Below, one piece after another: positions 44,238 to 64,000 of a DNA stretch of 64,000 nt (its first letter is position 1; every line of letters starts with the position of its first letter). The position numbers and the translations under genes were made by a program. The notes under the pieces were generated by a model, which was not told where the DNA came from, made no database searches, and saw only the letters and a program-made list of their open reading frames with translations. Origin of the DNA: Strobilurus pachycystidiatus (lineage: Eukaryota; Basidiomycota; Agaricomycetes; Agaricales; Physalacriaceae); the NCBI GenBank assembly GCA_019915135.1, contig JAHLMK010000003.1, forward strand, positions 2,994,607 to 3,058,606, read 5' to 3'.

Positions 44238-45511
44238 TCACGCATTATTTTTGTCGCCATCTTCATCTTCTTCTGCATCCTCGTCTTCCTCACACTGATG
44301 ATCGATGGTCAGCTCCTTCGCGTTCTCGAGCTCTGTTTTGATGATGTGCCACTCCTGCTTGATCGCGGTCCCGGCGTCTACTCGATCCTTGTCATGCTCG
44401 TTCGCGCTGTGTCCATCTGCGTGCTCTTCCTGCCTGATCTTGACCATCTCACTGGTTATCGCAGCCCAAACACCTGGTGTGAATATGAGTCCGGTCCGGC
44501 CAGTGGACTCGAAGGGATGTGACCACTCACGTTGACTCCTCTGGAGACTGGTGGCGAAGGATTTCACCTTCGCTATAAGAGATTGTCAAACAAAGTTCAA
44601 GTTGTGTACCGTGAGAAAGAAGCGTACCATTGGCGTCGTCCAATTTCTTGTTTGCAATGTCGCGAGACCGGTGCATTTCTTGCTCTAGGTAGCCAACGTC
44701 TTGCCGAAACTTCTCAGTCAATACTGAGGGGCATGAGACGGAAGTCAAATGTGTGCGAGGCCTAGGCCAAAGAGCTTGCCTTGAGACTTGCGGAGTTCCT
44801 TCTCCAATTGCCTCGTCTTCACTAAGTATGACCGGAATGGCTCATCAGAGGTGAGTCGTGAAGATAGTAAGGGAAAACTCACCATTGGCTGCCTCGAGTT
44901 TGGCTGCACTGTCACCTGGGTGTGGAAATTCAGTACAATATAGACTCTAGACTAAAGGTTCTCACCAAGGGCCTCTTGCGTGGCGCTCTCATGTTTCGCC
45001 TTGGTAGCGTCTAGCTCTAGCCTTAACGATTTTGAAAGTTCTAGTATAAGTAAGGTTAGTATGTTTAATGGAAACGCATAGGATGGACAGGACCTTGCGC
45101 CTTTTCCAAGTCATTCGTCAAAACTCGAACCTGGTCCGTGGATTGCTGGAGGTCAGTACGCAGGGAATCAACATCGCGTTGCAAGTCTGAGTTGTCGCCT
45201 AGGTTATAAGTTGGTCAATTGGCAGGAAGGAGACGGCGCACAACAACATACCGTTCAATACTTGCACTTGAGTGCGAAGGTCTTGAAGAGTTCCTGAGAA
45301 TCAAACTTGAGTGTGGGACGATACAGCAAGGATGGAGCCAGTGGAACCTGCTAGCTCTTCAGACCTTCGGGCCTCAAGCGCGGCAAGCCGCCTCTCGAGT
45401 TGGGCCAAAGTTGTCACCGGGACTTCTGATGCATGACTGGCATGTGAGGCAGAGAAGACGGAGGGTTGGGGAGAGTTAGCGGGTGGAGGTGCATTGGAGC
45501 GAAGTGCGCGT
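44238..45511 (-). pseudogene. Zinc-finger/coiled-coil gene, C-terminal part, cut by retrotransposon
   Basis: This is the downstream half of a minus-strand gene whose start is at 62562. From the insertion point the exon reads RALRSNAPPPANSPQPSVFS and leads into VTTLAQLERRLAALEARRSE. Short exons then continue a long coiled coil: GTLQDLRTQVQVLNG, DNSDLQRDVDSLRTDLQQS, VRVLTNDLEKAQ, LSKSLRLELDATKAKHES, LTEKFRQDVGYLEQEMHRS. The last exon ends in an acidic EEDEDAEEDEDGDKNNA. At least eight introns have proper GT-AG ends and heptads continue across them. Before insertion the frame joined the right-hand half without a shift. The coiled coil predicts a dimer, and its function is unknown. Confidence 0.78.
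45508..45511. repeat. Left target-site duplication GCGT
   Basis: GCGT directly precedes the left LTR (TGATACGC...). The same four bases follow the right LTR at 61891-61894. One more T is ambiguous, so a 5-bp duplication (GCGTT with an LTR starting at G) cannot be excluded. Confidence 0.75.
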
Positions 45512-47181
45512 TGATACGCAGGGTACTATTCCAGTACTAGAAACGGGGAATTTTGCGATTCCTGAACAGCCCAAGACCTTAGGAACCTCCAGTCAAGTAC
45601 TTAGGATAGAGCACGCAGGAGTTACTGCCTTGACGCGGGCAAGCCTCCAGGACAAGGTCTAGGCGCCTTAACAAGTCCTTTAGGACAGGCGCGATCGAAA
45701 CCTTCGATCACCTTCATCCGAATATCCTTATCCGCGCGTTGGATCCCTTTCAAGATCCCGTACCTTTGCGTGTACCTTGTACTACAGACGATGTGCTATA
45801 ACCATTCGCACCCAAGGAGGGTCCAAGGTCTCCAGGCGGTTCGGGTCGAGCGACCCAAGACCGGCGCACCTCAACCCAAAGACCTGGAAGGTCCCGAAAT
45901 AGTTCAAGGACGTCACAACCCTTTGGGGAAACAATCTTCGGAGCTGTCAAGGACTCCGAACCGACGCCTTCCGCTATGCCGATCGATCATGATCCACGAT
46001 CAAGGACCACCCCGAAAGCAGGGTGTATTACCACTTTAAGAAAGCACTCCCCTGTAGTGTCTGCGCTCGAAAGGACGTTCTTAACGATCTCCATCCAACC
46101 TATACACAAGAAAGCAGGTGTCCGTAGGACCTTGCAACATAAAGATACCTAAGGATCGAAGTCCTTATCGGACCTGGATCTCCTGGGCACAAGGATTGTA
46201 CCATACCGCCAAGGTGGCGTATATGGCTAAAGGACCAAGCGGCCTGGCCGCAGTTGTTTCGACCAGGATAGCCAATAAGAATCCAGCACTTGTATGACTC
46301 GAAAGTCCGATGTATCCGATCCTAGAATAGATGCTTACTCAGTAGGAACCCACCAGTAGTATAAAAGGGCCCAAAGGACCCATATTTCGGTAGCTTAGAG
46401 CCCCCTCCAGTAGCCGCTAGTCAGACGCAGCCGTTGTAGTGAATCTATCTCGAGTTTCGACTCATTTCTGCAAAGTACACAACAGACCCAAAGACCTTTC
46501 CAAGATTTAAAGACATCAGGTGTTGCCAAACTCCTTGAAAGACTCGAAAGAACCTTATTCCGACGTACCAAGTCAAGTACCAACGAATCTACTTGGTGTT
46601 AGAACCTTGTATTCGCAAGAAGGCCGGTTTGCAAGTGGTTCTGCCTGCACTCACGCTCTTTCGTGAAGTACTTCCCTTTGAGGAATAAGTCGAGTTTGAA
46701 CGAGTGTTGTCAACGTCTGAGACACCTTTCGGAACCTTTGGTCCCGGTACAAGACACTAGAAGTTTGGATTAAGTGCAAGAAGGAGTCCTTATCGTTAGC
46801 AGTCCAGTGGCGTAAAACCTGCGGTAGCGGCCTGACGATCCAAGACAAAGTCCTTGTACACCAGAGCACTTGATAGGTAGAAGCTACATTGCCTCGCGCT
46901 GTTTAAGGTCTTCATACGTCAAGAGGTTCGGCCTACGACTTCAGGTTTTCTTGTGTCATTTCGATCAGAATCCCTTCCCTCCCTACACCCCCAAAAACAA
47001 CTCGTAGTTTAACTACAGCGATTCGGAATACATCTCTATTTCTCCATTACCAAAAGCACCTTGTTCTCTCGAACCTTTGTGCACCCCATCTCCCTTACAA
47101 GGAGTGTTAGTTGTGATAAGGATTGATAGTGGGTTAGACGATAGCATCTTTTTCAGAGGTCTATTCCGAACTTGCACATCA
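45512..47181 (+). repeat. 5' LTR, 1,670 bp
   Basis: It aligns end to end with 60222-61890, with by-eye differences in the order of 15-20, including a 9-base CCCTTCCCT-type insertion near 46970. Most single-base indels are one base fewer in a homopolymer on this side. The LTR is rich in AAGGTCC/GGACCTT-type words. Confidence 0.95.
46360..46366 (+). promoter_or_regulatory. TATA box of the 5' LTR
   Basis: TATAAAA lies in the context CCAGTAGTATAAAAGGGCCC, about 0.8 kb before the LTR end, consistent with a pol II promoter for the genomic RNA. Confidence 0.7.
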
Positions 47182-47186
47182 TATTT

Positions 47187-47204
47187 TGGAGCCCACCGCG
47201 AGGG
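47187..47204 (+). promoter_or_regulatory. Candidate primer-binding site
   Basis: TGGAGCCCACCGCGAGGG starts five bases after the LTR end. TGG pairs with a tRNA CCA end, as in primer-binding sites. The tRNA was not identified. Confidence 0.5.
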
Positions 47205-47250: not shown

Positions 47251-49119
47251 GATCGGAATCTCCATAAACAAAAGACACTGGCTGCAAGGAACTCTGGTCG
47301 TTACACCAACAGCCAGAACCGCGCAAATCCACAACCACCAAAAGGAGACCCAGTTATTGCCGGATCTTCAAATCCAGCAACCTCTGGTATCACTGGTCGC
47401 CTAAGAAGCAATCGCCCAATCGCCGGCTCACTTTACAACGGTTTACCTAGTGAAGTAGCTCAAGCACAGCGACGCTTTGCAGACCCGACTACTCCCAAGA
47501 ACCAAAAGAAGAAACGTACGCAAGTACCACCTTCAACACCTACTGCCCCTAGGATCAGATCTTCTTCAGATCCTGAATCGCCTTCGAGAACTCCAACCAG
47601 TATCCGAAGACATTCGGACTCTAGAACTTCACCTAGTCCCGCATTTGTGACACCTTTCGGAAGTCCTTTGACTGACCTTGAAGACCCCGAAAGTCCAGAA
47701 CCTATTACCCCCTTCATTGACTTTAACCCGTCTACCCAAAACACGATACCAGTTCCAGTAATGGCAGTACGAGCAATTGTACCTTCCGAGGAGCTTAGCG
47801 CTGAAGCTAGAGGCGAGATCCAAGGCAAGAAGATCCCGATACCATTCTCAAGGGATGCCCCAAAGTTCAAGGGACACTCCGGAGACGATGTGAGGGAATT
47901 CTTCACGATGTGCAACTGGATCTTTGACCAGACAGGAATCACCGAACAAGGTACTAAGTTGGAAGTAGCGGCGCTATACGCCGGCCACGAACAACGCCTA
48001 AGGTGGCACAAAAACCCAGACTACCTGAAAGGTGTCTGGGCGGACTTCCAAGAATCAGTTCTTTCCTCATACTCAAAGGGAAAGAACGATCCTACGTACG
48101 TCCCGGCCGACCTAAAGGATGCCTTGGACCCGTACCTGGCTAGGCCCGTAGCCAACAAGCAGAAATGGGAAAGCTTTCAGCGCGAAGTACTCCATATCAT
48201 GGGACATCTTATCACGTCGGGAGAACTTACCAATAAGGGTGCTATAGAAGATATCAAGTCCTCTATCACAGAGGGAGTTTGGCATAATGTCCTTGGGGAC
48301 CTCAGGCGCGATGCGAAAGCTAATGCAACAGCCGGGACAACCCCCACCTATGACTTCACGTTGTCAGAGGTCGAGGCAGCGATCTCCAACTACTTCTTGA
48401 CCGATAAATGGATGAGCAAGAGTGCGAAGGATAGTCCTTATAACAGAGAACTTATTCCCGCCTCTACCACCCGAATCAAGACAGAGGAGTTGGATGAATA
48501 CCTGAATAGGGTAGCTAGCCTTCAGGACATTATCCAGAAAGGAGAAAAGGAACGCGAAGAGGCTCGCAAGGCTGATCAGAAGATGATGGCAGAACTTCTC
48601 CATACCTTACAGCGTGGAGGTCCGCAAGGACTCCGCACCCAAGGTTTTGTACAAGAAGCCTCGCCGATTTATCTACAAACACCTGCTCAAGGTGTCTCAG
48701 TCCCGACCAACTTACCGAATGGACTCTACAAAGCTCCTCCGGGCGCGTTCCCAGGAAACAAGTTCGTAGTTAACGATGGAAGGTGTTACTTCTGTCGTGA
48801 ACTAGGGCATATTGTAGCGAATTGTCCTACAAAGGAAATGTGCGAAAGCAATGGTCATATCTACAAGCCTGGTGGTACCAACATATATCATGTAACGAAT
48901 GGAACTACTAGTCAACCTATTCAAAGGGTTAGTCCCAAGCAGCCTCTCAGCCCTTGGGAACAAGTCCAGAAGTTTCAACAAGAAAATGCACCTAAGGTAT
49001 CGGCGTTCCAATCTCAAGAAGATGAGTTTGCACCTGAGGTCGCGATGTATGTTCAAACCCCAACCCAAGAAGAAGAGTTTGCCCCCGACGCCTATCAGGG
49101 TTTCGGCAGGGCTCGATGA
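47251..49119 (+). CDS. gag: Gag polyprotein of the Ty3 element
   Basis: The frame is open from 47251 after a TGA, but its first in-frame ATG is at 47761 (MAVRAIVPSEELSAEARGE). The 510 nt before that ATG have coding character (Pro/Ser-rich, no stop), so a non-AUG start or a spliced leader may be used. From 47761 the product would be 452 residues. Capsid-like sequence includes FKGHSGDDVREFFTMCNWIF and EVAALYAGHEQRLRWHKNPD. A CCHC zinc knuckle (CYFCRELGHIVANC) is near 48786-48827. TGA is at 49117-49119, 13 bases after a GGGTTTC slippery heptamer. Confidence 0.88.
   Translation, partial: DRNLHKQKTLAARNSGRYTNSQNRANPQPPKGDPVIAGSSNPATSGITGRLRSNRPIAGSLYNGLPSEVAQAQRRFADPTTPKNQKKKRTQVPPSTPTAPRIRSSSDPESPSRTPTSIRRHSDSRTSPSPAFVTPFGSPLTDLEDPESPEPITPFIDFNPSTQNTIPVPVMAVRAIVPSEELSAEARGEIQGKKIPIPFSRDAPKFKGHSGDDVREFFTMCNWIFDQTGITEQGTKLEVAALYAGHEQRLRWHKNPDYLKGVWADFQESVLSSYSKGKNDPTYVPADLKDALDPYLARPVANKQKWESFQREVLHIMGHLITSGELTNKGAIEDIKSSITEGVWHNVLGDLRRDAKANATAGTTPTYDFTLSEVEAAISNYFLTDKWMSKSAKDSPYNRELIPASTTRIKTEELDEYLNRVASLQDIIQKGEKEREEARKADQKMMAELLHTLQRGGPQGLRTQGFVQEASPIYLQTPAQGVSVPTNLPNGLYKAPPGAFPGNKFVVNDGRCYFCRELGHIVANCPTKEMCESNGHIYKPGGTNIYHVTNGTTSQPIQRVSPKQPLSPWEQVQKFQQENAPKVSAFQSQEDEFAPEVAMYVQTPTQEEEFAPDAYQGFGRAR
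49098..49104 (+). promoter_or_regulatory. Candidate -1 frameshift site, gag to protease
   Basis: G-GGT-TTC matches X-XXY-YYZ in the gag reading phase (codons CAG GGT TTC). After a -1 shift the protease frame is open to 50288. ATGA at 49116-49119 also overlaps the gag stop and protease frame, so reinitiation is the alternative. Confidence 0.65.
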
Positions 49120-50288
49120 AGGAAGGAGTGCAGTTAGCACATACTCCTCCGGAGAGCCAATTCACTGTAGAAACTCGTCAGACTCGTCAGAGCGCAAAAG
49201 CACCTAGTGCACCTGTGGATTCAACTCCACAAAACAAGGTAACCTCATGGCCTAAGGACCGGGTGTCCGTGGTCATTCCAAAAGCAGCGCCGCCTAAGGT
49301 ATCATTCTCCAAGCCGGAAGTCACTCAAGAAGTAGAACCTGTTGACCAGGACCTTCTTGACGAAGTCCTGGCGATGGAAGAACCCGGCCCGGTGCCGCAA
49401 CCAAAAGCAGATTCAACTCTGCCAGAAAAGAACCAACCAAAGGTTCAACCTAAGGAACCTAAGGTCAAGAGTTTCCAACGTCGTAGCCTGGCAGAAGAAC
49501 TCTTGCACAAGAATCCCAGTTGGCGTGAAGCCTGGAAGTTCTTGTTACCCGAAGCCCTACTAGCTACCAACCCCCCTTGGCAGCAGAGCATTTCGGACTT
49601 CATCAGGAAACGCAACACGCCTGTGGCTGTATTCAAGACGGAAGTAGTGGCTGATACGGTCCAAGACCACTTCCAACCCGAGCTATATTCAGTCAACTTT
49701 CATGAACAAGGTGATTTACCTATTGGTGGAATTATAGTCCACGATGCGGTAGAACAGTTTGTAAACCTTTCCGGAGGTCACTATACTGGTCCCTTTCAAA
49801 TGATAAGTGGCAATATGGCGCCGGAAAATGCAGATCTACGAACCTTTTGGCCCTTGATTAACAAGAATGGTAAAAAGGAGAGTTTAGTGGATGGTGGGTC
49901 ACAGATTGCCTCCATTTCGCTCAAGGCAGCATTGGAACTAGGAATAGCCTATGATCCCACTTTCACCATTACTATGGAAAGTGCGGACAAGGGACGAACC
50001 AGTACCTTGGGATTGGCTCGTAACATACCTTTTGACTTTGAAGGAATTGTCTATTACCTTCAGTTGCATGTGTTGCAGGATCCCGCCTATGAGGTCCTAC
50101 TGGGACGACCTTTCGAGATCGTTTCAAACCTGGTCATCACCAACCTTCCCAACGGGAACGCAATCGGAACCCTTACGGATAACACCAATGGGAAGAAGTT
50201 ATCGCTACCTTCTTACCGTCGAGGACAGATCCCAAGACATATGATTCCAGGAGGACAAACGGGTTTTCACGGGAACCTAAGGACGTAG
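49105..50288 (+). CDS. pro: Protease region of the Ty3 element (separate frame)
   Basis: This frame is -1 to gag; its first ATG is 49116. The N-terminal part is Lys/Pro-rich linker. About 150 residues in comes a charged helical region (SFQRRSLAEELLHKNPSW). Near 49888 is LVDGGSQIASISLKAALELG, with the D-G-G-S active site of retropepsin-type aspartic proteases, followed by YEVLLGRPFEIVSNLVITNL, the C-terminal ...LLGR.. hallmark. It ends at TAG 50286-50288, 19 bases after a GGGTTTT heptamer. It processes the Gag-Pro-Pol polyprotein. Confidence 0.85.
50261..50267 (+). promoter_or_regulatory. Candidate -1 frameshift site, protease to pol
   Basis: G-GGT-TTT matches X-XXY-YYZ in the protease phase (ACG GGT TTT CAC). 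The pol frame is -1 relative to it and is open directly after (SREPKDVGNSYEEAVLIL...). The first possible ATG of pol lies further downstream, so shifting is the simplest way to translate the beginning of pol. Confidence 0.7.
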
Positions 50289-53200
50289 GAAATTCCTATG
50301 AAGAAGCCGTGTTGATCCTTGAAAGGTCACCCGAAGGAAACATCGAAGTAAAGCAAAGTTGGATACCTGGTGATAACAGGGAGACCTTCGGGGAAGGGGA
50401 CTTAACGTCCTTATACATGAAGAAGTCACCCAATAGGGTTCATCAGGCAGCCAAAAGGCTAAGGAAGCAACACGCCTTCATGCATGCATCGATGCACCAA
50501 GCATCGACACCTATGACCGTCCCAGAACATATGGTGACACCTACGGGACTATTAAAGGTCCCAACCAAGACTCAAGGCTTTCGCAAGGTATTCAATATCA
50601 ACCAGATTGCGGAAGACCAAGAAGAATTTAAGTCCTATGCTACTGCGACTTTGAATCTCTTTTATGGGGTACCAAAGGAGCTAGAACAAGTCTTTACGGG
50701 CTTGTCGGTAACCTTACCAAAGGATTACATGGCGGAGGCCCAACAGGAGTTCCTAAGGTTGGAAAGTCAGATCCCTAAGAGGGGTGTCTTCGTAGGAAAG
50801 AAGTACAAGCCAGTAGCCTTGAAAACCAAAGCTCACCTTGGAACCTTACCTGAAGAATTCAGGATCAAGCGCCACATTCATGGAGACCCACTAGCTGGGA
50901 TGCCGGAATTAGTACCTGATCCACCACCCTTCGTACCCACAGGTAGGTATACTGCCGAAAGGAGGGAACAGATACAAGCCGACCACGTCGGGGACTTCCT
51001 GACGGATGCAGAAAGACGGATTATAGACTCCATCTTCTGTAACCAGAACGAAGGCTTTGCCTGGGAAGAATCTGAGAAAGGACACTTCAAGCCAGAGTTC
51101 TTTCCACCAGTGGATATCCCGGTAATACCGCACACACCTTGGGTGTTGAGGAATATACCAATTCCACCAGGAATCTATGACGAAGTCTGTAAGATTATCA
51201 AGCACAAACTAGACTCGGGCGTGTATGAGCCTTCGAACTCCTCATACCGCTCCAGGTGGTTCTGTGTTGTTAAGAAGGATGGAAAGAAACTTCGCCTAGT
51301 GCACAGTCTGGAACCACTCAATGCGGTGACCATTGCGCACTCAGGGTTACCTCCAGCCACGGAGGAACTAGCGGAGTCCTTTGCAGGACGAAGTTGTGGA
51401 GGGACCTTGGATCTGTTCGTTGGATATGACGAACGGCTCCTTGCCACCGCGTCTCGCGATATGACAACCTTCTCGACACCTTACGGAGCGTTAAGGTTAA
51501 AGACCTTACCAATGGGCTGGACTAATTCAGTACCTATCTTTCATGACGATGTTACAACGATTCTCAAGGATGAAATACCAGCCTTTACCAGACCTTATAT
51601 CGACGATGTGCCCGTCCGCGGACCCGCTACGCGATATGAACAAACTGATGGCACCTACGAAACGCTTCCAGGTCATCCTGAAGTAAGGCGTTTCGTTTGG
51701 GAACACCTTGTGAACATGAACAGGATCATACAGCGAATGAAACATGCCGGAGGGACCTTTTCTGGTCACAAGGCTATCATTTGTGCAGAAGAGATTGTGG
51801 TAGTGGGACATGTCTGTACCTACGAAGGTAGAAAGCCAGCTGAAGATCGCGTTAAGGTGATCTCGGATTGGCCCCCTTGTAAAGCGCTCACGGAAGTCCG
51901 TTCGTTCTTAGGAACAGCTGGAATCTTCAGAGCATTTGTAAAGGACTACTCTAAGAAGGCGTTACCTTTGACCAGGTTAACTAAAGACATTACCAAGTTC
52001 AGATGGACAGACGAGGAGCAGGAAAGTATGGATACCTTAAAGGAAGCCATACGAACTTGTCCGATGCTGAAACCACTGAATTATGAATGGTCCACGCCAA
52101 TCACACTGTCGGTAGACACTTCTTACCAGGCAGTAGGTTTCTATCTGTCCCAGGTAGATCCCAAGGACCCTAAGAAACGATACTTTGCGAAGTTTATGTC
52201 TCTGACCTTGAACGAAAGAGAGGCAAGGTACTCGCAAGCCAAGCGAGAACTATTCGGGCTCTTCAGAGCTCTGTCCGCGTGCAAGTACTACCTTCTAGGG
52301 TGTAGAAAACTAGAAATTGAAGTAGATGCAAAATACATCAAAGGCATGTTATCAAACGTGGACTCCTTAGCGAACGCAAACCTGCAAAGGTGGGCTGAGG
52401 AGATCCTGATGTACCACTTCACGCTTGTACACGTACCAGGAAAGGTTCATGGCCCGGATGGTTTAAGTCGCCGTCCAGCTTCAGAGCATGATGTAGTAGT
52501 ACCCAGACCTCACATAAACATAGAGGATGACGAGGTCAATACCTTTGAGTACCAGGAGCCTAAAGGTCTGCCTATAGAGGAGCAGCCGTTAGAATTTGAC
52601 ACTTTCAGGAATGACATCGACAGTAGGGGAGGCTATTTCCAAGAAATAGTACGGAGTCCTTTACCAGACCATATAAAGGTTTCTAAAGCGGTAAGGACTT
52701 CGGGACTAGTGAACGTTAAGGATATCGAAGGCTGGATGCATATCACGGAGTTCCCAGAGCTCAATAAGAGCAAACGGGAACGGTTGTGGGAGACCTATTT
52801 GCCCAAACTTCAACCTTACTTACAATCGGAAGATGGACTTGAGGACGAAGACTTGGAGAAATGGAGCAAAGACTTCTTTGTCCAGCATGAAAGGTTATAC
52901 CGAACCCATTCGGACTCCCACCCCCGTCGAGTGCTACTTCCAACTGAACGAATCCCGGTTTGTAAAGCTCTACACGATCGGGCAGGACATAAAGGACAAT
53001 ATTCCGTGTTACAACTCATCATGAAGCGATTCTGGTGGCCAGGTATGGAGGTCGACATACGATGGTATGTAAGGACCTGTGTACTATGCCAGAAACGCCA
53101 GAAACGTAACATAAAGGTTGCACCAACAATTACTTCAACTCCAGGTATCTACGAAAGGGCTTATATAGACACCTTCCGGATGCCTAAGGCAGGAGAGGAA

Positions 53201-54154
53201 TCCATTCGAAAGAAACGACCTTCAAAATGGGCCGGCTTCAATGCTGTGACCGTAGCAAGGTGTGGATTAACAAGTTGGCCAGAGGCAAGGGCTCTCAAGG
53301 AAGAGACCGCCGAGTCACTGGGAGAATGGATCTTTGAGGACATTCTATGCAGGTGGGGTTGTATCAAGGAAATTGTAACCGACAATGGGCCAGCAATCAA
53401 GAAGGCCTTAGTACATATTGAACAGAAATACGGTATTACGGGTATCTTGATCACGGCGTACAATAAGCAAGCCAACGGAAAGGTTGAACGAGGACACTGG
53501 GATATCCGTCAATCTCTCTTCAAGGTATGCAGGGGTAAACCCGAGCAATGGCCAGAGTTCCTACATGAGGTCCTTTGGGCAGAGCGCATTACCATAAAGA
53601 GAAGTCTAGGTACTTCAGCGTTCCAGGCAGTAACCGGTTGTGAACCAATCATGCCAATGGACCTGGAGGAATTGACTTGGCTGGTCGAAGCACCAGGTCG
53701 ACTGGTCTCCCATTCGGACCTTATTGCCTTCCGAGCTAGGCAGCTCATCAAGCACAAGGAAGATACTGCCAAGTTAAGGTCGAAGGTCCTTCTAAATAAA
53801 CAGAAGGCCGCGGCGAAGTTCCTAGAGGACTTCCAGAACAGTATCCCTCGCTACAAATTCAAAACTGGTGAACTAGTGCTAGTAAGGAACACTAGGATCG
53901 AATCAGAAATGAATGCGAAGTTCAAGGAAAGGTTTATGGGACCTTACGCGGTAGTAACAAGGACCTCGGCAGGAAACTATGTGGTCTGCGAGTTGGACGG
54001 GACAATCTACAAAGACAAGATAGCTCAGTTCCGTGTAATACCTTTTGTATCGCGACGAGATCCTATAGACCTTGGAAAACAGTTCTTTGATCGACTACAC
54101 TTCATAAGTAAGCCGATCACAAAGACCTTAGATGTCCTTGCCAGAACTACGTGA
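50268..54154 (+). CDS. pol: Pol polyprotein: reverse transcriptase, RNase H, integrase
   Basis: About 1,295 codons are open from the frameshift site. The RT domain has LDLFVGYDERLLATASRDM, LPMGWTNSVPIFHDD and the YIDD catalytic box at 51596-51607. RNase H has ITLSVDTSYQAVGFYLSQ. Integrase has the HHCC zinc module (HDRAGHKGQYS...CVLCQ), then catalytic Asp in YIDTFRMP (about 53165), Asp in TDNGPAIK and Glu in ANGKVERGH. The C-terminus has a basic domain and FKERFMGPYAVVTRTSAGNY, a GPY/F-type module. The integrase-last order fixes it as Ty3/Metaviridae. No internal stops. Confidence 0.93.
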
Positions 54155-54492
54155 CCTTGAGCACCCAAGAATGAACTACAGCTTCAAAGGAAGCTAAGGT
54201 ACCATACCAGATGACGGGGACGTCATCAGAAAAGTAAAGAGAGAATAGAGGGACATCGGTCCATTTATTCAAGGACTATAAAAATTTTATTTAAAACTCA
54301 TTCTGTGCCCAGCTGGCTACAATAGTAGCTAAGGTAGCTGTGAACTAGGGACAGAATAGAGAAGCAAGACAAGGCACGAGGCATCAGGGAAGTGGCGGGG
54401 TGCGAACCAAGAAAGCTTAAAGGTGATGAAGCCGTAAGGTGATGTGGTAAGCGCAAAAAGGAAGCACCACTCACCGAACCACCACCACGACA
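54155..54492. promoter_or_regulatory. Spacer between pol and ORF4 with a TATA-like box
   Basis: The A/T-rich block TATAAAAATTTTATTTAAAA begins at 54277, about 210 bp upstream of the ORF4 ATG. It could be an internal promoter for ORF4. Inference. Confidence 0.45.
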
Positions 54493-56597
54493 ATGCCAAC
54501 AAGCTCGCCCCAGGATACCGAGCCCAAGGAGGACGTGAAGGTAAGCAACCAACACGATCACCGGCAGGGCGGCATGCGAACTAACTTACCAAAAGGAGCA
54601 GTCGCCGCCGCCGCCGCCAACGTCGCCCCAAGGACATCAGGAGCCTCCCGCAGCTCAGGAGGAAGAGGAAAAAGAGGCGCAAGCACAGGAACAGGTGAGT
54701 AAAGGCCAAAGACGCGTAGAAATACGAAAAGACTTACCACCGCCGCTCCTCGCGCTAGCTCCCACTCATCGCCTGCGAAGCTAGGCCGGACCACGTCAAG
54801 ATGACTCGCCCTCTGTTTGACTACAGTGGCTTCCTTACAAACAGGACCGTACCTCAGGAGCTGGACGCGGGCATCAGTCTGCGTCTGGCCGAGTCGCTAG
54901 ACAACAAACCGTCAGCGACGCGCGATATCCTACAGGACGCCGGTTACAAAGGATATCTTCGAAACGGAGTATTCTGGCTGACCTTCCAGGACGCGCTCGA
55001 AGCAGTTCCCGCCGGAAAACGAACAACGCTGGAACGCGTCGAGATGGCGCTCAGCGCCGCGTGGGGCACCACCAAGGCCTACAAGAAACAAGTCAACCCC
55101 CCATACGAGACCACTTTCTTGGGTAACGACCGCATCGCCCCAGAGCTTGCGATCCGACTCTCGGAAGACGACGCCCAGCGTTGTTTTCTGGAGTTAGATC
55201 ACCTCTGGAACTTCATACCTGACCAGGACCGAGCGAACGCGTTCTGGGGGGCGCTTCTCGTGGAAATGCGCAAACATCGCGACGACACGCCCATCGAGGG
55301 GTCCTTTTACAAGGCCATGGACGACCTAATCGAGAGCTCGATAACCGAGCTTGGGATTAGCGACTACCAGCGCGAGGAAACGCCGAGTCTCGACAGCAAG
55401 GTCGACGACGAAGGAACCCCGCGCCCCACGCTGCAGCAGCTCGCGCAGGAGGCGTCGCCCAGTCCCCGCGACTCGCGAGTCCCGTCTCCGGCACCCCCTT
55501 CGCACCACGAACCCACGCCCCAGCCTGAGCTGGAACCTCCCAAGCGCAAACCGTACGTCGCGGCAAGCAAGGGCGGTCCCAAGTCAACCACCAAGTACGT
55601 CCGCCGCACCATCGCGCCCCTAACGTTTGCTGATGCCTCAACAAGGCCGAGGGCCGTTGCCGTGAAGGTGGAACCCAAGGACAAAGACGTCGAACCTGCC
55701 AGGAAGACTTCAGTCGCGCGTGCCACTACCGGTGGCGCCCAGAAACGCAAGTTCGACGAACGCAACTCCGAGGACGCCGAAGCCAGCGACGAAGAAGAAG
55801 ACGACTTCGTCCTGGATGAGCGCGACAAAAGTAACCCGCGCATCCCCCTCCACCGTGACGATGGCTTCTGCGGTCCCTGTATCAAGCAGAGACTGTCGTG
55901 CACGTACTACCGGATCCACGCGACGCCCGCAGAAAAGAACAACAGCTTCACCTGCGACCAGTGCAAGGAGAAGGATGGTCAACACGGGCCGTGCTGGGTT
56001 GCGTGGAGGAGGAGTCAAGTCCCCGCCCCGTGGAAGGAGGTCGCGCCAAAGATCCGCGCCCAGCTACAGACCGCGGCGAAGCGCAAGACCGACGCCCAGA
56101 TCCGAGCCCGCACGAGTCAAGACTACTCGGACGCGGCGCGCGCGATCGCGGCGGAAGCAGACAGGCTGTGGAAAGAGGAGAAGGAGAGGAAGAAATCGAG
56201 GAAGGAGGAGCCAGCCGCGAAACGCCGTCGCGTCGAGAGCGCCGCTGGAAAGAAGGGCAAGGCAAAGAAGGAGGAAACGTCGGACGAAGAGGAGACTGGC
56301 GACTCCGACGTCGAGGAGATCCAAGCGCCCCGGACCCGCCTCCAGAAGGGAAAAGTAAGCGCCGCCCCGCCTCCCGCCTCGACCAAGTCCTCGAAGGGAG
56401 CCGCCACGTCGATCAGCGCGGTCCAACGCCAGGACAAAGGCGAAGGAGCTAGCCGTCAAGGTGTGCCGTCCTCCGCCTCCGCCAGCCGCATCGACCCCGC
56501 CGAGGACGTGGACAAGGTCCTCGCGATGTACTTCTCCCTCAGTGAGAAGAGCCGCCGAAAGTTCAGGAAGATAGCCGAGATTGCGGTGGGACGTTAG
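54493..56597 (+). CDS. ORF4 of the retrotransposon: sense, spliced, Cys-rich basic protein, function unknown
   Basis: Three exons: MPTSSPQDTEPKEDVK; EQSPPPPPTSPQGHQEPPAA and an acidic stretch; then LPLIACEARPDHVKMTRPLF and about 600 further residues without interruption. The N-terminal region looks globular (LRNGVFWLTFQDALEAVPAG). A disordered Pro/Ser linker follows. A cysteine cluster comes near residue 400 (CGPCIKQRLSC, C-x2-C-x6-C; then CDQCKEKDGQHGPC). The Lys/Glu-rich tail includes nuclear localisation-like KRRR and a final helix with YFSLSEKSRRKFRKIAEIA. The first two introns (54542-54596 and 54696-54760 approximately) have GT-AG ends. GC content is higher than in pol. It could be a nucleic acid-binding accessory protein. 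No family recognised. Confidence 0.68.
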
Positions 56598-56983
56598 TCG
56601 CGTCCCGCCGCTAATCTTTTCTTTTTTTTATATACGCGAATACCAGTCAGTGCCAAACGGACACTTTTCATATACGCATTCCCCGCCCCGTTGTATTTTA
56701 TAAAAATATACAACTTCTTGTACTCCAAAGAACCGTGTGAAAACCACCGAGGTGCAAGAACAAGGAACCTTAGTGGGAACCTTAAGTCAAGGGGAGAATC
56801 CAGGACTCTCCTTGGAATATCAAAGGTCGCGAAGTTCGGGGGCTGAGAACCTTAGACGATGAAAAGGTCCACAAGAAGCTGTGTTACGAGTAAAGTAATA
56901 CAGACAAAGCAATGTGACTATAAGGAACATTCGTAAGGCAGAAAAGAAAAGCGACCTTTAGGTCAAAAGAAGTCAACTAAGGA
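56598..56983. terminator. Convergent 3' region with T/A-rich stretch
   Basis: After the ORF4 stop comes TTTTCTTTTTTTTATATAC (about 56617-56635) and ATTTTATAAAAATATACAAC near 56693-56712, plausible 3'-end signals between convergent ORF4 and ORF5. Poly(A) sites themselves are not visible. Confidence 0.4.
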
Positions 56984-58120
56984 CTAAGCAAAACGACTCC
57001 AATCAGGAGGGACCGCAAGGTTCGCAAGGCGCGCATAGAAAGGTCCTGCGTGGCTAAGGTCGATTGCTAACATACTAGCAGCAAGGAGTTCGTAGTCTAC
57101 TTCGGTGGCCTCCGACCAGTCGATGAGCCAGAGTAGTGGATCGATGATAGGCAGCGACTGGTTGGGGCGCTGGAAACACAGAAGTTACAAACGGACCGCA
57201 AACTACGAAGTTGTTCACGGACCCGATTGGCGGGAAGGTCAATCTCGGGGATCAACCGACGCATATTGGGAGGTCTATCCAACGCGTAGGCGTCGTCCCA
57301 GCCGTAAAGAGCAGAGTTCTGACGTTGGAACTCTGGCCACCACTTCATAACCGTGACAAGGTCGGCGGGAAGGTCCCCATACTGAACAGGAAGGACCTTC
57401 AGGTCGTCAGACCCGATGTAAAGCGAGCGAAGGAGTGTGGAAAAGCCGGAGTAACCACCAAAGTGAGCCTCGACCTACGTCTAAGGTCAGCGCCGACCAC
57501 AAGACATGAAAGGAAAAGACCAGGTTTAACTCACCATGAAAGGTCCGATGAACTCTTGGGTAAACCAAGGGTGACTCGCAAGGATGTCCATGTTAAGGTC
57601 CCCCAGGTGGAAGCGGGCGCCTTCACCGTCAAGGGTATTGCCTTCGGCGAACCAAGCTTTGCAAAGTTCGACGGCGGTGTAGTACAAAGGAAAGAAGTGC
57701 GCCTTGAAGCCGTGAGGAATGGCCCTGTTCTGGAAGTGAAAAGCGGGTTCCCAGATATAACGAAAGCGGACCTAAGGACCATCCGTTAGTCAAGAAAGGT
57801 GTCGAGGCGAAGTCAACTAGACCTACCAGGACGTGCAAAAGGTAGCGCAAGGTTGGAACGTCTAGAGGTTCGTCTCGACCAAAGGCATGAACCGGAGGCT
57901 TGAGCTGGGGAAGGAGGCGAGTGTCGTCCTCCGTAGCTAAGGTCCCATCCGGATGACGGACTACCGCAACGAAGTAGCGTGTATAGTTGTACATCTCCAT
58001 GGCGCAGCTCAGCGCAAGGTCCGCTGTGACTAAGTCATGTTGAAAGGAGGTCAAAGGCGAGCGAAGTCGAACGCCTTGAATGCGCGTATCTGCAAAAGAA
58101 GGCAGGACGGGTGCGGGCAT
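56984..58120 (-). CDS. ORF5 of the retrotransposon: antisense, spliced, function unknown
   Basis: The start is MPAPVLPSFADTRIQGVRLR at 58120 (minus). Introns with GT-AG ends follow ...TLRYLLHVL and ...FTQEFIGPFM. The next exons encode VRFRYIWEPAFHFQNRAIPH and VEAHFGGYSGFSTLLRSLYI, then DLPADLVTVMKWWPEFQRQ. A last intron with donor GTCCGT after PEIDLPANR leads to RPNQSLPIIDPLLWLIDWSE and the end ...DWSRFA at TAG 56984-56986. If that intron is not used the frame ends at 57097. The product is about 320 residues and looks globular. It is transcribed against gag-pol. Antisense extra genes of this kind are known in some plant LTR elements, but I know no fungal homologue. Confidence 0.65.
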
Positions 58121-58493
58121 GATCAAAGATGAGATTCCTGTCTCCAGGACCGACTTAAAAGAGGACCCTCATCAGTCGAAGGTCCGAACGAACCGATAAA
58201 ATGCAAAGTTTAGGCGCCACCTATCTAAAGGTAGGTACGATCGGCGATAGCCGATCGAACTAAGTTCGATCTTAGACCTACCAAGGTGCGGTCAGGAAAA
58301 ACTTTAAGGGTTCAAATCGAAAGGAGTTGGATTATGCACCAACTGGGCCTAGAGTAGTCTAAGGAAATAAAGTGACTACCGCTCCTACAAGTGGGAAAGG
58401 AATCCGAAACCAGTATGAAGACGAAGTAGTGAAAACTATGAGTAGTACTGGTTAAGACTTGGCGAAAGTTAAGCTAAAGTAGGACCTTGTAGT
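58121..58493. promoter_or_regulatory. Spacer between ORF6 stop and ORF5 start
   Basis: It presumably contains the ORF5 promoter on the minus strand. A palindrome-like GATCGGCGATAGCCGATC lies near 58229-58246. No other feature. Confidence 0.4.
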
Positions 58494-60028
58494 CTACTGA
58501 GCCTGGTCAATCGCGTCTAAGGCCGAGATATAAAGGTCGCGAGTCGACTGCAGGACTTGGATACGGCCCCGAATCTCGTTGAAAGTCGAGATAATGTCGT
58601 GCCGGTACTGGCGCTCCAAAATGACCAAGTTGGGCGAGATGTTGGGGTCGTCAAGACCAGACAACCTTGACATACGCTTGTGGACTTGGGCCAAGGCAGC
58701 AGACAGACCATTGATGTACTGGTTCGCTAAGGTGAAGTAACCAGGAATCAACAAGGCAAACCAAGGAGCGAGGAAGAAGCACCTTACCGCCTTCAAGTTG
58801 TTTAAGAACGACAGGTTCGACCCCAAAGGTCGAAGGCCGGGCCGCCTTTACAACACGGCGAGCGTTCTCATCGTTAAGCTTACGCTTAGGAGGAGCTTCT
58901 TGACCATTGATCGCGCCCAAGGTTTGAAGGGCTTTCTGGTAAACACGGGCGTTAATGTCCATACCGGGAAGAGCTGCGAAAGGAAGGTAACGGACGGAAG
59001 ATGACTATTAAAGAAGTCATAAGGAAGTCCGGGACAAACATAGGATTCAAAGGAACGTACCGCTTCGGCTTCCTTTGACAAGGAATTGGCGAGTTGGAGC
59101 TGGCGAAAGGCTTCAATAAAGGAAGATGAGACTGGCAAAGAAATTGAGCGCACAGTATCACCGACGACGACAACGGAGTCCTCACCGTCGCTCTCGCCAG
59201 CTGCCACATCGTCAGCCCAATCAAAGTACTCCGGACGAAAGAAGCGCGCACAAGAGTCGGGATCCATCGCGACGTCGCCGTCTCCCGCCTCGGCTCGTTT
59301 CTCCATGGCCTCGGTAACGACCTCGGGCGATTTCTTCGTCTTCTAAGCGAAGACATCCAGAGGTTACAGTGGGAAACCGACGAGTAACGAACGGACATAC
59401 CTTGCCTTTCTCAAGCTTGTCCGGCTTGAAATAAGCGTTATCCGGATGCATAGGGTGACCCGGGGACAGGCCAGGGAAGTGGGCGTTAGACGCCTTCTTG
59501 CAGCTGCTCACCAAAGGTTGGAGGATATGAGCGATGTGGTGCGTCGGCGTCTGAGGGTGAATCCCCAGCAGGTGTACCAGCATCCCTACATAGAGGCGAA
59601 GGTTGAAAAAGAACACCGCCATGTCCGTCGACACCTTGGAACCATTCGGAAAGGTGCGAAGGTCATGGGCGACGGCCTAAAGAAAACAAGGACAGGATGA
59701 AGTCAGGATCAGGAAAAGAACACAGCGAAGGAGTACACACAAGGACTCTCTCCATGATCTTGTCAACATAGCCGGTGATCTCCAGTGCCACGTCGGGATT
59801 CGAACACGCCTTCTTGAGGTCCAGACGATGGACTTTGGGAATGATGAGCGTAAGATGCATGCCGAGGTACATAAGGAAGTCGGGTGTGTTGGCTGGAGGG
59901 TCGTAGTCGAGCGCATAAGCGACGAGACCGGCGCCAAGGTCGCGCGTAGTGATCAGGTCCTTCGCGGACGGAACGTGCGGCGTTGTGGGAAGCAGTTTTG
60001 CGATGGGAGTCCAAGTTTTGGGAGCCAT
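58494..60028 (-). CDS. ORF6 of the retrotransposon: antisense, five exons, function unknown
   Basis: The ATG at 60028 starts MAPKTWTPIAKLLPTTPHVP. Exon 2 begins AVAHDLRTFPNGSKVSTDMA and exon 3 KTKKSPEVVTEAMEKRAEAG, with an acidic stretch (GESDGEDSVVVVGD). Exon 4 begins SSSVRYLPFAALPGMDINAR and carries a basic segment (PPKRKLNDENARRVVKAARP). Exon 5 (ANQYINGLSAALAQVHKRMS) is helical and ends ALDAIDQAQ. All four introns are GT-AG, 56-65 nt, and the frame is intact over about 425 residues. It begins 193 bp inside the 3' LTR, so an antisense promoter may lie in that gap or in the LTR. No family recognised. Confidence 0.68.
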
Positions 60029-60212
60029 GATAGAATAAGGAATGAAAGGTCTGAGGACAAGTCCCAGGACCTTTTATAACGGAACGAAGTTAGGCAAAAG
60101 AGGGTCCATCGGGCGATAGAAACCAAAAGGGGACTTCGTCACGACGGCCTGGTACCCAGGATAAAGGTTCTGAACCACCAAGGACTATGTCGCGGACGAC
60201 ATTTCATAAGTC

Positions 60213-60221
60213 AAGGGGAGA
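60213..60221 (+). promoter_or_regulatory. Polypurine tract
   Basis: AAGGGGAGA abuts the 3' LTR start, as expected for plus-strand priming. Confidence 0.8.
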
Positions 60222-61890
60222 TGATACGCAGGGTACTATTCCAGTACTAGAAACGGGGAATTTTGCGATTCCTGAACAGCCCAAAGACCTTAGGAACCTC
60301 CAGTCAAGTACTTAGGATAGAGCACGCAGGAGTTACTGCCTTGACGCGGGCAAGCCTCCAGGACAAGGTCCAGGCGCCTTAACAAGTCCTTTAGGACAGG
60401 CGCGATCGAAACCTTCGATCACCTTCATCCGAATATCCTTATCCGCGCGTTGGATCCCTTTCAAGATCCCGTACCTTTGCGTGTACCTTGTACTACAGAC
60501 GATGTGCTATAACCATTCGCACCCAAGGAGGGTCCAAGGTCTCCAGGCGGTTCGGTTCGAGCGACCCAAGACCTGCGCACCTCAACCCAAAGACCTGGAA
60601 GGTCCCGAAATAGTTCAAGGACGTCACAACCCTTTTGGGGAAACAATCTTCGGAGCTGTCAAGGACTCCGAACCGACGCCTTCCGCTATGCCGATCGATC
60701 ATGATCCACGATCAAGGACCACCCCGAAAGCAGGGTGTATTACCACTTTAAGAAAGCACTCCCCTGTAGTGTCTGCGCTCGAAAGGACGTTCTTAACGAT
60801 CTCCATCCAACCTATACACAAGAAAGCAGGTGTCCGTAGGACCTTACAACATAAAGATACCTAAGGATCGAAGTCCTTATCGGACCTGGATCTCCTGGGC
60901 ACAAGGATTGTACCATACCGCCAAGGTGGCGTATATGGCTAAAGGACCAAGCGGCCTGGCCGCAGTTGTTTCGACCAGGGATAGCCAATAAGAATCCAGC
61001 ACTTGTATGACTCAAAAGTCCGATGTATCCGATCCTAGAATAGATGCTTACTCAGTAGGAACCCACCAGTAGTATAAAAGGGCCCAAAGGACCCATATTT
61101 CGGTAGCTTAGAGCCCCCTCCAGTAGCCGCTAGTCAGACGCAGCCGTTGTAGTGAATCTATCTCGAGTTTCGACTCATTTCTGCAAAGTACACAAAGACC
61201 CCAAAGACCTTTCCAAGATTTAAAGACATCAGGTGTTGCCAAACTCCTTGAAAGACTCGAAAGAACCTTATTCCGACGTACCAAGTCAAGTACCAACGAA
61301 TCTACTTGGTGTTAGAACCTTGTATTCGCAAGAAGGCCGGTTTGCAAGTGGTTCTGCCCTGCACTCACGCTCTTTCGTGAAGTACTTCCCTTTGAGGAAT
61401 AAGTCGAGTTTGAACGAGTGTTGTCAACGTCTGAGACACCTTTCGGAACCTTTGGTCCCGGTACAAGACACTAGAAGTTTGGTTTAAGTGCAAGAAGGAG
61501 TCCTTATCGTTAGCAGTCCAGTGGCGTAAAACCTGCGGTAGCGGCCTGACGATCCCAAGACAAAGTCCTTGTACACCAGAGCACTTGATAGGTAGAAGCT
61601 ACATTGCCTCGCGCTGTTTAAGGTCTTCATACGTCAAGAGGTTCGGCCTACGACTTCAAGGTTTTCTTGTGTCATTTCGATCAGAATCCCTACACCCCCA
61701 AAAACAACTCGTAGTTTAACTACAGCGATTCGGAATACATCTCTATTTCTCCATTACCCAAAAGCACCTTGTTCTCTCGAACCTTTGTGCACCCCATCTC
61801 CCTTACAAGGAGTGTTAGTTGTGATAAGGATTGATAGTGTGGTTAGACGATAGCATCTTTTTCAGAGGTCTATTCCGAACTTGCACATCA
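60222..61890 (+). repeat. 3' LTR, 1,669 bp
   Basis: It has the same ends as the 5' LTR and retains the TATA box at 61073-61079. Several homopolymers are one base longer than in the 5' LTR. The right end GCACATCA is followed by the duplicated GCGT. Confidence 0.95.
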
Positions 61891-62562
61891 GCGTTGAGAA
61901 GTGCGTGCGGCGGGCTTGGGGAGTCGAGGTCCAGTGGAAGGACGAGAGGAAGAAACGTGTGACATTCTGGGTGGAGCTGGCGCGACGCTGGACGTGGACA
62001 CGCTTTGCCCGAGCCTTGGTCGCTTGGCAGGTGGAGCGTTGGTGTCTGTCCAGGTTTGCATTGAGTGGGTTGGGATGTCAGCAAAAAGTAAATACGCGTC
62101 TGCGCACCATTGTCCGAATCTTTGCCTTCCGACGAATCCTCTTCGAGGTCGCTCTGGTCCGGGCCTGCACGGCGCTTTTTGGACGAAGAGGTCCTGGTAG
62201 CGGGCTTTGGGAGATCCTGTGCAAAAAGGGCAAATTCTGCTGCTGTAATGGTCACTCCGGGGTGCTTCTTGCGAACAGCCGACAACAGCTCATCGTTGTC
62301 GAGCGAACATCGTGCAGGGCCATCGCGGCACTCAGGCGTATCGCACCGGGCTCGGGCTTTCATACCTTCGCAATCGAGTTGGTGCGCGGCACAGAAGTTG
62401 CAGGGGTCCTGTTGGGGCATAAGCAAGACGCGCTAGGAAAGAGGGAACACTGACACGCTCGGGATTCTCTAAGACCCACTTCTTACCACAGCGGAATTTG
62501 GCGTTGAGCGAGCGGGCAGTATCTTTCCAGTTTCGGGCGGTCGGCGTGCCTTTGGGGGGCAT
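61891..62562 (-). pseudogene. Zinc-finger/coiled-coil gene, N-terminal part, cut by retrotransposon
   Basis: The ATG at 62562 gives MPPKGTPTARNWKDTARSLN. An intron with donor GTCAGT joins ...VLENPER to DPCNFCAAHQLDCEGMKARA, a cysteine cluster C-x2-C-x6-C-x8-C-x4-C-x6-C reminiscent of, but not identical to, fungal Zn2Cys6 fingers. A charged segment with KKRR follows, then an intron, then a Ser/Pro-rich linker (RPSTGPRLPKPAARTSQ) that runs to the element. Reading across the insertion with one GCGT removed continues directly into RALRSNAPPPAN... at 45511. The order suggests a nuclear DNA- or RNA-binding protein that dimerises (inference). In this genome copy it is disrupted. Confidence 0.75.
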
Positions 62563-63512
62563 GGTGAGTGTGATGCGATGGTTGAGGGTAAAATTACACG
62601 CGGACGGTCTCGGGCTAACGACGCGGAGGTCGTCGTTCACAAGAGAGAGCGACGGCCATCAAAAATGGCGTGAGCCAGCCGTGCCCGAAGTGTGCCCGAT
62701 CGGAGATTTGACTAGATTTGATGGCTCTCTAATCTATTTCGAATCTACATAATACTCAAGGGTGACCTGGGCAGCTGCAGGGGTAGGATCTCATCCGATT
62801 TCAAATTGGCAATGCATCGGTACGGCAATTTGATTGCAAAACTACTGGTAGTGTACACACATTCAAGACACTCGGGTGAGAAATGATCTAAACGTGCGCC
62901 ACTTGGAGGACAAATGGTCGCCTGGAGAGTCTGGGAGATTAAACGAAATGAGGCGGGAGGCGCTGGCGCTAGGAAAATGACGACAGGTGGGCGGGCAGTG
63001 GTAGTCCTCCCTTGGCCGGGCGGTTGAGATATGCGAGCGCGTTTGCAGCGCGGCGCTGACGTGAAGGTCTGATGCCGCTGGCGGTTTTGATTGGATGTGC
63101 TCGCTACCCGGGCGGACCCGCTGGCAGATCGAAGCTCAGACGCTGGCAGGCGATGCCAGATACGCCGGCAGGCCCGGCAAAAACGCTGGCGGAATTGGGA
63201 CGTCTGCTCGGCCTAGTCTTGATCTTGATGGACCCCTCCACTGAGAGTCGCCCCATCAGATGGCGGACTTTGAATTTGAGCACGGCCAGAGCGCCTCCAC
63301 CTGTTGTCGGCATTGTCGATGACGTGAGGCAAAAACCTGGGTCAAAGAGCGTAGGTGAACCTAACACACTGCATGTTGCAAATGAGCACAAATCGGCAGC
63401 AGTTTCTCGGATCTCAAGTCTATGTCGCTCAAGTCACTCCAACCCAGTTTTTCATGAACCTGTCTCTCGTCCGAGTTGTCGAAAGTCCTGCGAGGTTCTT
63501 GCCGAGTTGCCG
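62563..63512. other. Upstream region of the interrupted gene; no gene seen
   Basis: It holds the promoter side of the zinc-finger/coiled-coil gene. Another GCTGGC-rich patch lies at 63065-63190. Open frames on both strands overlap and have no domain. Confidence 0.45.
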
Positions 63513-63844
63513 TTATTGCTATTTGCGAAAATGATGACACTTCTGGAAATGATCGAGTTTAGTAGAGTAACCCTAGACCGAAGTAAGCCCTAGATTAGGG
63601 TGACCTGAAATTATCATAATTGTCGGCTCATTACCTTGCTTGTCAAATTTCACTTGAGTTTATCTGCTTTCAGCATTATAATAGTACTGGAAGCCATTCT
63701 GGGGTACGAGAGCTAATGCGAAGACATGGGCTTGCGGTCCTCAGTCCCGGGAAATAAACCTAATCTAGGGCTTACATGGGCTTAGGGTTACTCTACTAAA
63801 TTCGATCATTTCCAGAAGTGTCATTGTTTTCGCAAATGGCAATA
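63513..63844. mobile_element. Foldback / MITE-like inverted repeat
   Basis: The left arm 63513-63599 and right arm 63760-63844 are inverted copies with roughly 90 per cent identity by eye. Matching words include ACACTTCTGGAAATGATCGA with TCATTTCCAGAAGTGT, TAGTAGAGTAACCCTA with TAGGGTTACTCTACTA, and GCCCTAGATTAGG with CCTAATCTAGGGC. The intervening 160 bp are A/T-rich and noncoding. No target duplication was identified. Confidence 0.75.
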
Positions 63845-64000
63845 ATTTCAAATAGGCGACTGTCAGTGGACCCCATCAACAAAATCCAGACTTTGTAGTG
63901 GTAAGAACGACTGTCTTCTTACATCTCACAAATTCTGGTTAACGAGACTATGCTCGGCCCATGTGGGCGGCCCATCAGTTCTACTGGCGGAACAATCTCG

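Follow-up and report, generated by a model that had tools for sequence, protein, structure and literature searches.

Why does a fungal retrotransposon carry, beyond its coding core, three additional spliced genes, two of them antisense? The question is raised by a 64,000-nucleotide stretch of DNA from the agaric Strobilurus pachycystidiatus (GenBank assembly GCA_019915135.1, contig JAHLMK010000003.1, positions 2,994,607 to 3,058,606 of the forward strand), here called the window, which contains a young, multicopy Ty3/gypsy element of 16.4 kb with near-identical long terminal repeats (LTRs). A preliminary description, made from the letters alone, had placed one sense gene (open reading frame 4, ORF4) and two antisense genes (ORF5 and ORF6), all open and with well-formed introns, in a block of about 5.7 kb between pol and the 3' polypurine tract (PPT). 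The block is present, but its length from the end of pol (54154) to the 3' PPT (60208) is approximately 6.05 kb. Comparison with related loci in the same genome (51.8 Mb in 61 contigs) indicates that the gene set is real, conserved, and element-borne; its function can be proposed from sequence features.

Splice sites assigned by eye were checked against copies of the element. A DNA search of the genome yielded 27 matches (25 of 109 first-look candidates were scored). The 21 matches covering the whole query, namely the window element and 20 others, were taken as the copy set of family A, and the 6 partial matches were excluded. All nine introns (Table 1) were bounded by GT-AG in each of the 21 full-length copies. 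ORF5 and ORF6 were open in 21 of 21 copies and ORF4 in 20, the sole exception being the L009 copy with a 1-nt length change; the gene arrangement of the preliminary description thus holds across the copy set. Coding lengths otherwise differed by multiples of 3, four of the nine introns differed by 1 to 3 nt, and the off-frames of the spliced genes contained 4 to 25 stops per copy. The ORF6 product has 431 amino acids, or 413 if an additional intron at 59153-59100 is removed, which gives six exons. This 54-nt segment is in frame in family A, reads GT...AG in 21 of 21 copies, and has 1 variable site among its 54 positions. It is probably a tenth intron, which in family A may be spliced or read through, because a 56-nt intron at the same place keeps the ORF6 model of a second family (family B, below) open.

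Selection was estimated, as the preliminary description had suggested, from the proportions of nonsynonymous and synonymous differences (pN and pS; Nei-Gojobori, all pairs, counts not corrected for the tree). The pN/pS ratio was 0.207 for ORF4 (20 copies), 0.162 for ORF5 (21 copies), and 0.072 for ORF6 (21 copies, five-intron model), i.e., 0.07 to 0.21, and for the last 400 codons of pol it was 0.047 (17 of 21 copies; L016, with 10 stops in the frame read, and L021 to L023, with 27 stops, were omitted). When the genes were divided into blocks, all ratios were below 0.3 except that of ORF6 codons 160 to 239. Variable sites at codon positions 1, 2, and 3 numbered 146, 122, and 373 in ORF4, 22, 12, and 41 in ORF5, and 13, 2, and 39 in ORF6. 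Purifying selection keeps ORF4, ORF5, and ORF6 functional as proteins.

A search of the genome with the ORF6 protein turned up a second, diverged set of loci, designated family B, of which two loci (L029 and L030) were read; three more families (C, D, and E) are known from coordinates and identities. The pol of L029 is 83% identical to that of family A over the 850 residues compared. The order and orientation of the genes, ORF4 on the plus strand and ORF5 and ORF6 on the minus strand, are the same in L029 and L030. Spliced on the family A pattern, L029 encodes an ORF4 of 650, an ORF5 of 322, and an ORF6 of 409 amino acids, with matching intron places and phases; in L030, intron 2 of ORF5 was missed by the splice-pattern search. 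Protein identity between the two families is 63% for ORF6, 50% for ORF5, and 36% for ORF4. The three-gene module shares ancestry between families A and B.

Gene context was scored by a script that paired the coordinates of listed matches; some of the genome lists were incomplete, and the totals are lower bounds. The preliminary description had allowed that the genes might be a chance capture if they were absent from all other copies of the element. This was not the case: among the 52 listed family A pol ends (at least 93% identity), 31 were followed by all three genes, 12 by none, 5 by ORF4 alone, and 1 by ORF5 and ORF6 only. At the other 3, ORF4 and ORF6 lay more than 5 kb away; two of these pol ends have ORF4-leader sequence and may have been split from the genes by insertions, and the third is a short form of the kind described below. 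In families B and C, 15 of 17 listed pol ends had ORF4 and ORF6 downstream. ORF5 was listed for just 2 of them, and a separate protein search found an ORF5 exon at 19 B/C loci. Convergent pairing of ORF4 and ORF5 was found at 57 of 58 ORF5 exon loci, 54 of them at 630 to 671 bp, and the odd locus sits 1.25 kb after a pol end. In family E, whose pol is 71 to 73% identical, antisense ORF6 was found downstream of 15 of 17 listed pol ends, at 8.1 to 8.8 kb in 14 cases, and all three pol ends with 67 to 68% identity had antisense ORF6 at 5.9 to 7.9 kb. From this context it follows that the genes travel as part of elements. The distance in family E, mostly about 8.3 kb (for example, pol at C5:1902828-1903661 and ORF6 at C5:1911836-1912340), leaves room for other genes replacing ORF4 and ORF5.

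Outside this genome, a protein collection gave two relatives of ORF4 (69% and 44% identical) and none of ORF5 or ORF6, the latter being weak evidence, since spliced genes are probably underrepresented there. No relatives were found when viral contigs were searched with pol and ORF4.

ORF4 differs from the other two genes in its diversity. Nucleotide diversity in family A was 0.13 to 0.19 in the first half of ORF4 and 0.08 to 0.11 in the second, compared with 0.01 to 0.03 in pol (52709-54058) and mostly below 0.05 in ORF5 and ORF6. The 20 ORF4 copies fell into eight classes at pS 0.12. Between the class of the window element and the others, pS was 0.42 to 0.50 in ORF4, whereas the same copies differed by 0.03 to 0.08 in ORF5, 0.01 to 0.05 in ORF6, and, among the comparisons obtained, 0.05 to 0.10 at the pol end. 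The same contrast was seen independently in family B. There, an 85-residue ORF5 exon was 98 to 100% identical across 19 loci, while ORF4 was 98 to 100%, 85 to 86%, or 36 to 38% identical to that of L029, depending on the locus. The 36 to 38% type was found at C1:3885, C10:626, and two C27 loci, whose ORF5 was again 98 to 100% identical. At C6:2539 (C6:2538978-2540809), identity of ORF4 to that of L029 was 78% in the first 400 residues and 99% in the remainder, a pattern as would be expected of a within-gene recombinant. At C27:271-285 kb, two elements bearing the divergent ORF4 type are found within 14 kb of sequence, in opposite orientations. ORF4 is apparently a divergent cassette that has been swapped between elements; recombination between elements is the simplest account of its divergence, selection within ORF4 still being purifying.

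The ORF4 product contains a cluster of six cysteines, invariant in 8 of 8 aligned sequences, which we take to resemble the fungal Zn2Cys6 cluster, with a linker longer than in that family; Pfam gave no match for ORF4, whether to the Zn2Cys6 profile or, as might be looked for in a sense ORF after pol, to a retrovirus-like envelope protein. ORF4 also carries basic stretches, and its G+C content is 0.62, compared with 0.48 in pol. The whole-protein structure model had a predicted local distance difference test score (pLDDT) of 43, with about two-thirds of the model below 50; the N domain gave 68. No fold match at E ≤ 0.001 was obtained among PDB or viral models, and therefore no fold is claimed. 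A profile search against PDB gave one match for ORF6, at E 4.7, and none for ORF5.

Derivatives lacking the genes have spread. Among 16 A-type pol copies that lack the canonical block, 10 had a PPT 970 to 980 bp after pol (6057 in the window); these short copies were characterized from match coordinates. The pol frame was open over 1294 to 1323 codons in 8 of the 10, and 6 of the 10 also showed the 5' sequence of ORF6 at nearly one spacing (40 of 99 candidates scored). A different deletion was found at L031 (C3:404000-413900), where nearly all of ORF5 and ORF6 is gone and the end of ORF5 is joined to the first codons of ORF6; this junction recurs at three loci. The products of ORF4 to ORF6 are likely used in trans by such copies without the genes.

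A second copy of the PPT was found between ORF4 and ORF5, within a predicted hairpin. All 21 copies keep its 13-mer AAGTCAAGGGGAG, with a different 14th base in 2 of them. It lies 3.4 kb inside the 3' PPT, and the pair encloses just ORF5 and ORF6. In family B, both PPT copies read AAGTCAAGAGGAG. Genome-wide, the A-type 13-mer occurred at 98 sites, compared with 7 for the backwards control, and the B-type at 39, compared with 4. Thirty-two A-type pairs were spaced 3404 to 3435 bp apart and 16 B-type pairs 3377 to 3437 bp; 6 more A pairs had other spacings, and 22 A sites and 7 B sites were unpaired within 4.5 kb. The match of the two copies within each family indicates constraint or conversion. 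Lentiviruses and Ty1 have a central polypurine tract, and the internal copy found here is likewise on the same strand as, and identical in its core to, the element's own 3' PPT. Unlike those tracts, it is placed, as read from sequence alone, downstream of both pol and ORF4, with antisense genes between it and the 3' PPT. It may work as a central PPT, or it may mark how the ORF5-ORF6 block was acquired.

The motif TATAAAW occurs eight times in the window, both strands counted. The palindrome GATGACGGGGACGTCATC in the putative ORF4 promoter was identical in 21 of 21 copies, and its core is kept in L029 and L030; TATAAAA precedes ORF4 in 21 of 21 copies. In L029, TATAAAW precedes ORF5 by 42 nt and ORF6 by 54 nt. 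Such TATA boxes before the genes would make separate transcription units likely. Two hairpins are predicted between pol and ORF4 in both families (window 54205-54275; L029 2725-2800) and could be RNA elements or DNA palindromes. One copy, L028, has a 15-nt tandem copy of GGGACATCGGTCCAT near window position 54250.

The preliminary description had argued that sense introns should be lost unless unspliced RNA is packaged. Both ORF4 introns are kept in 21 of 21 family A copies and in both family B copies read. Splicing before reverse transcription would erase them, and the packaged RNA must therefore be unspliced there.

We consider it probable that this is a Ty3/gypsy element with a long-standing accessory module of three spliced genes, whose products are nuclear accessory proteins acting at least partly in trans. 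The LTR would drive an unspliced genomic RNA, which would then be packaged. Each of the three genes, ORF4 in the sense direction and ORF6 and ORF5 in the antisense direction, would yield a spliced mRNA of its own, probably from an internal TATA promoter. Introns of the antisense genes could not be spliced from the genomic RNA, and the sense introns of ORF4 would survive in unspliced packaged RNA, as in retroviruses and Cer1. The most likely role of the nuclear accessory proteins would be to control expression of the element or export of its intron-containing genomic RNA, and copies deprived of the genes would be able to use these proteins, at least in part, in trans. ORF4 is probably a specificity or host-interaction factor, as suggested by its Zn2Cys6-like cluster, basic stretches, and swapped divergent alleles. 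By analogy with the Cer1 protein CERV (below), ORF4, ORF5, or ORF6 could play an export part.

Several observations weigh against this interpretation. Deletion derivatives with a long open pol have multiplied, and ORF4 to ORF6 are therefore not needed in cis; the multiplied derivatives do not by themselves establish complementation in trans. Searches with ORF5 (59 of 59 candidates scored) and ORF4 (72 of 82) gave no match in families D and E at E ≤ 1, and ORF6 alone is seen there. For 15 of 82 ORF6 loci, no pol on the right strand was listed; several of these, though not all, stand beside partial pol or ORF4. The intactness counts cover full-length copies only, and ORF6 codons 160 to 239 had a pN/pS of 0.71, with few changes (pS 0.007). 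The promoters of ORF4 to ORF6 are predicted from motifs alone, and two of the motifs are weaker matches: family A ORF5 has only TTTTAAG at -40, and family B ORF4 has TATAATTT at -234. No Pfam, PDB, or fold match gives any of the three proteins a function, and the putative nuclear role is argued only from composition and analogy.

A different account, which is possible but on balance doubtful, is that of a modular element. Here the central PPT would split the reverse transcript, plus strands would start on both sides of the antisense genes, and the resulting segments would assort among copackaged genomes. ORF4 would be an allelic specificity cassette, its versions (down to 36% identity) standing in backbones whose sampled ORF5 exon is 98 to 100% identical. 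Frequency-dependent pressure, for example from host silencing or competition between copies, would keep the divergent ORF4 versions, and the short copies without the genes would live off full ones. The ORF5-ORF6 block could also be a former independent element inserted in reverse beside the PPT, with the PPT copies as its scar. The two PPT-core copies that bracket the block 3.4 kb apart in families A and B would fit such an origin, but no terminal repeats of the block's own were noticed, and ORF6 occurs also in families D and E. Within each family the two PPT copies agree, for which an old scar would need constraint or conversion, and no free copy was recognized, although 15 of 82 ORF6 loci had no listed pol. 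This origin is considered unlikely. Still less likely is that the antisense block matters as RNA, its transcripts pairing with genomic RNA and making or blocking small RNAs. Convergent transcription is implied by the layout, and such roles have been discussed for plant antisense ORFs in the part of the source available (PMC7264820). Purifying selection at the amino acid level, frame keeping, and in-frame splice sites argue against it, while an added RNA role would still be compatible with them.

Recent capture of host genes, in which a single element would have taken up the ORFs as pieces of the host genome and multiplied them along with itself, is highly improbable. Introns are present, as in host genes, and the G+C content of ORF4 exceeds that of pol; yet the matches seen were multicopy and mostly in element context, and family B has the same set at 36 to 63% identity with corresponding introns. 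The preliminary description had named single-copy host homologues with matching flanks as a sign of chance capture. Searches of the genome with ORF4- to ORF6-type proteins of families A and B, one of the ORF4 searches using the close relative P0001 as the query, recognized no single-copy host homologue among the listed matches, which largely refutes this explanation. The least credible alternative is that the genes are passively carried along in a very young burst and have not had time to decay. The LTRs indeed differ at just 10 of 1624 aligned positions plus indels, and short derivatives have multiplied too, but pN/pS is far below 1 in each gene, ORF4 has kept its frame at a pS of 0.30, and the genes are conserved to a family at 83% pol identity. 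The accessory module acting at least partly in trans remains the preferred reading.

The features of the element itself are given in Table 1. Its LTRs are direct repeats with TG...CA ends and a target-site duplication, as is characteristic of LTR retrotransposons. Aligned over 1624 positions, they show 10 mismatches, with a further 18 gap columns, the last ~36 nt lying outside the alignment. Several homopolymer runs are one base shorter in the 5' LTR than in the 3' LTR, reflecting assembly error or real deletions. In pol, RNase H (residues 566 to 702) precedes the integrase zinc-binding domain (residues 880 to 933), which is the Ty3/gypsy order. No RVT profile matched pol in Pfam at E ≤ 1; a YIDD motif is visible. 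A tRNA scan of the window found none, and an Rfam scan gave no family at the gathering threshold. A minus-strand ORF with a cysteine-rich motif (61815-62426) overlaps the end of the 3' LTR and the flank and is perhaps part of the insertion site. An inverted repeat at 63501-63857 has 99-nt arms, 87% complementary and 159 nt apart.

Table 1 Features of the retrotransposon, in window coordinates
Feature	Position	Strand	Remarks
5' LTR	45512-47181	+	TG...CA; GCGT target-site duplication at 45508-45511
Putative primer-binding site	47187-47203	+	TGGAGCCCACC; from sequence only
gag-like ORF	47647-49119	+	CCHC zinc knuckle; Pfam zf-CCHC E 8e-4, just under cutoff
ORF2, aspartyl-protease-like	49116-50288	+	Pfam gag-asp_proteas E 0.017, below cutoff
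pol	50309-54154	+	Pfam RT_RNaseH_2, RT_RNaseH, Integrase_H2C2
Putative ORF4 promoter	54210-54284	+	Palindrome GATGACGGGGACGTCATC and TATA box TATAAAAA at 54277, 216 nt before ATG
ORF4	54493-54540, 54596-54694, 54759-56597	+	3 exons, 661 amino acids; introns 54541-54595, 54695-54758
ORF4 six-cysteine cluster	55869-55994	+	C-X2-C-X6-C-X17-C-X2-C-X9-C (window spacing)
Internal PPT copy	56784-56797	+	AAGTCAAGGGGAGA
ORF5	58120-57827, 57771-57535, 57474-57223, 57169-56984	-	4 exons, 322 amino acids
ORF5 introns	57826-57772, 57534-57475, 57222-57170	-	
ORF6	60028-59741, 59676-59401, 59342-59061, 59004-58788, 58726-58494	-	5 exons, four introns
TATA box before ORF6	60071-60078	-	TATAAAAG; 50 nt before start codon; 21/21 copies
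3' PPT	60208-60221	+	AAGTCAAGGGGAGA
3' LTR	60222-61890	+	GCGT duplication at 61891-61894; TATA box TATAAAAGGG at 61073

Antisense genes with regulatory products occur in human T-cell leukemia virus (HTLV), among them HBZ, which is spliced. The available parts of the sources describe the products of HBZ and APH-2 as regulatory and nuclear (PMC11963269) and place the HTLV antisense promoter in the 3' LTR (PMC7264820). The antisense genes described here, with their putative nuclear regulatory role, would be analogous; the Pfam scans found no bZIP in the proteins of this element. In the plant Retand elements, antisense ORFs are reported in a pol-3' LTR region of 2.9 to 6.6 kb and are kept in nearly all recent copies, and nuclear location and transcription from a promoter of its own are reported for the antisense gene of Grande (PMC11963269, PMC7264820, as far as these sources were available). 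The present element resembles such Retand/Tat-type Ty3/gypsy elements (Grande, RIRE2) in its long pol-3' LTR region with antisense ORFs. The plant antisense proteins carry TRP28 (PF04195), which Pfam did not detect in those of families A and B, and the element was therefore not filed as Retand. It differs further in having three genes, of which one is sense and two are antisense, interrupted by nine or ten introns in total, and a second PPT copy.

The preliminary description knew of no fungal counterpart with this set. A fungal gypsy element with an additional antisense gene does exist, namely Boty (BcGypsy1) of Botrytis cinerea with brtn (PMC7264820, PMC8365987, in part); going by description only, Boty has one antisense gene as far as the available text goes, compared with two here. 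The open-access literature searched gave no fungal element with this gene set and none with modular evolution like the swapped ORF4 and family-matched second PPT. For Cer1 of Caenorhabditis elegans, the available part of the source reports that CERV, made from a spliced mRNA, is required to export unspliced genomic RNA and that its Cys-rich loop is needed (PMC10309623). The likeness, drawn from description only, is that of an accessory protein from a spliced mRNA, here predicted, with a genomic RNA that keeps its introns; no antisense gene is mentioned for Cer1 in that part of the source (PMC10309623). Bdelloid elements carry varied extra ORFs, as the accessible part of one report describes (PMC5408684). 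Antisense extra genes are thus known from Retand/Grande and Boty, and three spliced genes in two orientations are unusually elaborate.

Extra genes in LTR retrotransposons have been mostly orphan observations in plants. Here, a single genome holds families that share a spliced gene set in both orientations together with natural deletion derivatives, which opens the role of the genes, any action in trans, and the survival of sense introns through reverse transcription to direct test. An ORF4 that is divergent and apparently swapped, and a second PPT that follows the 3' PPT of its own family, point to modular evolution, and the accessory gene set may help the element copy itself.

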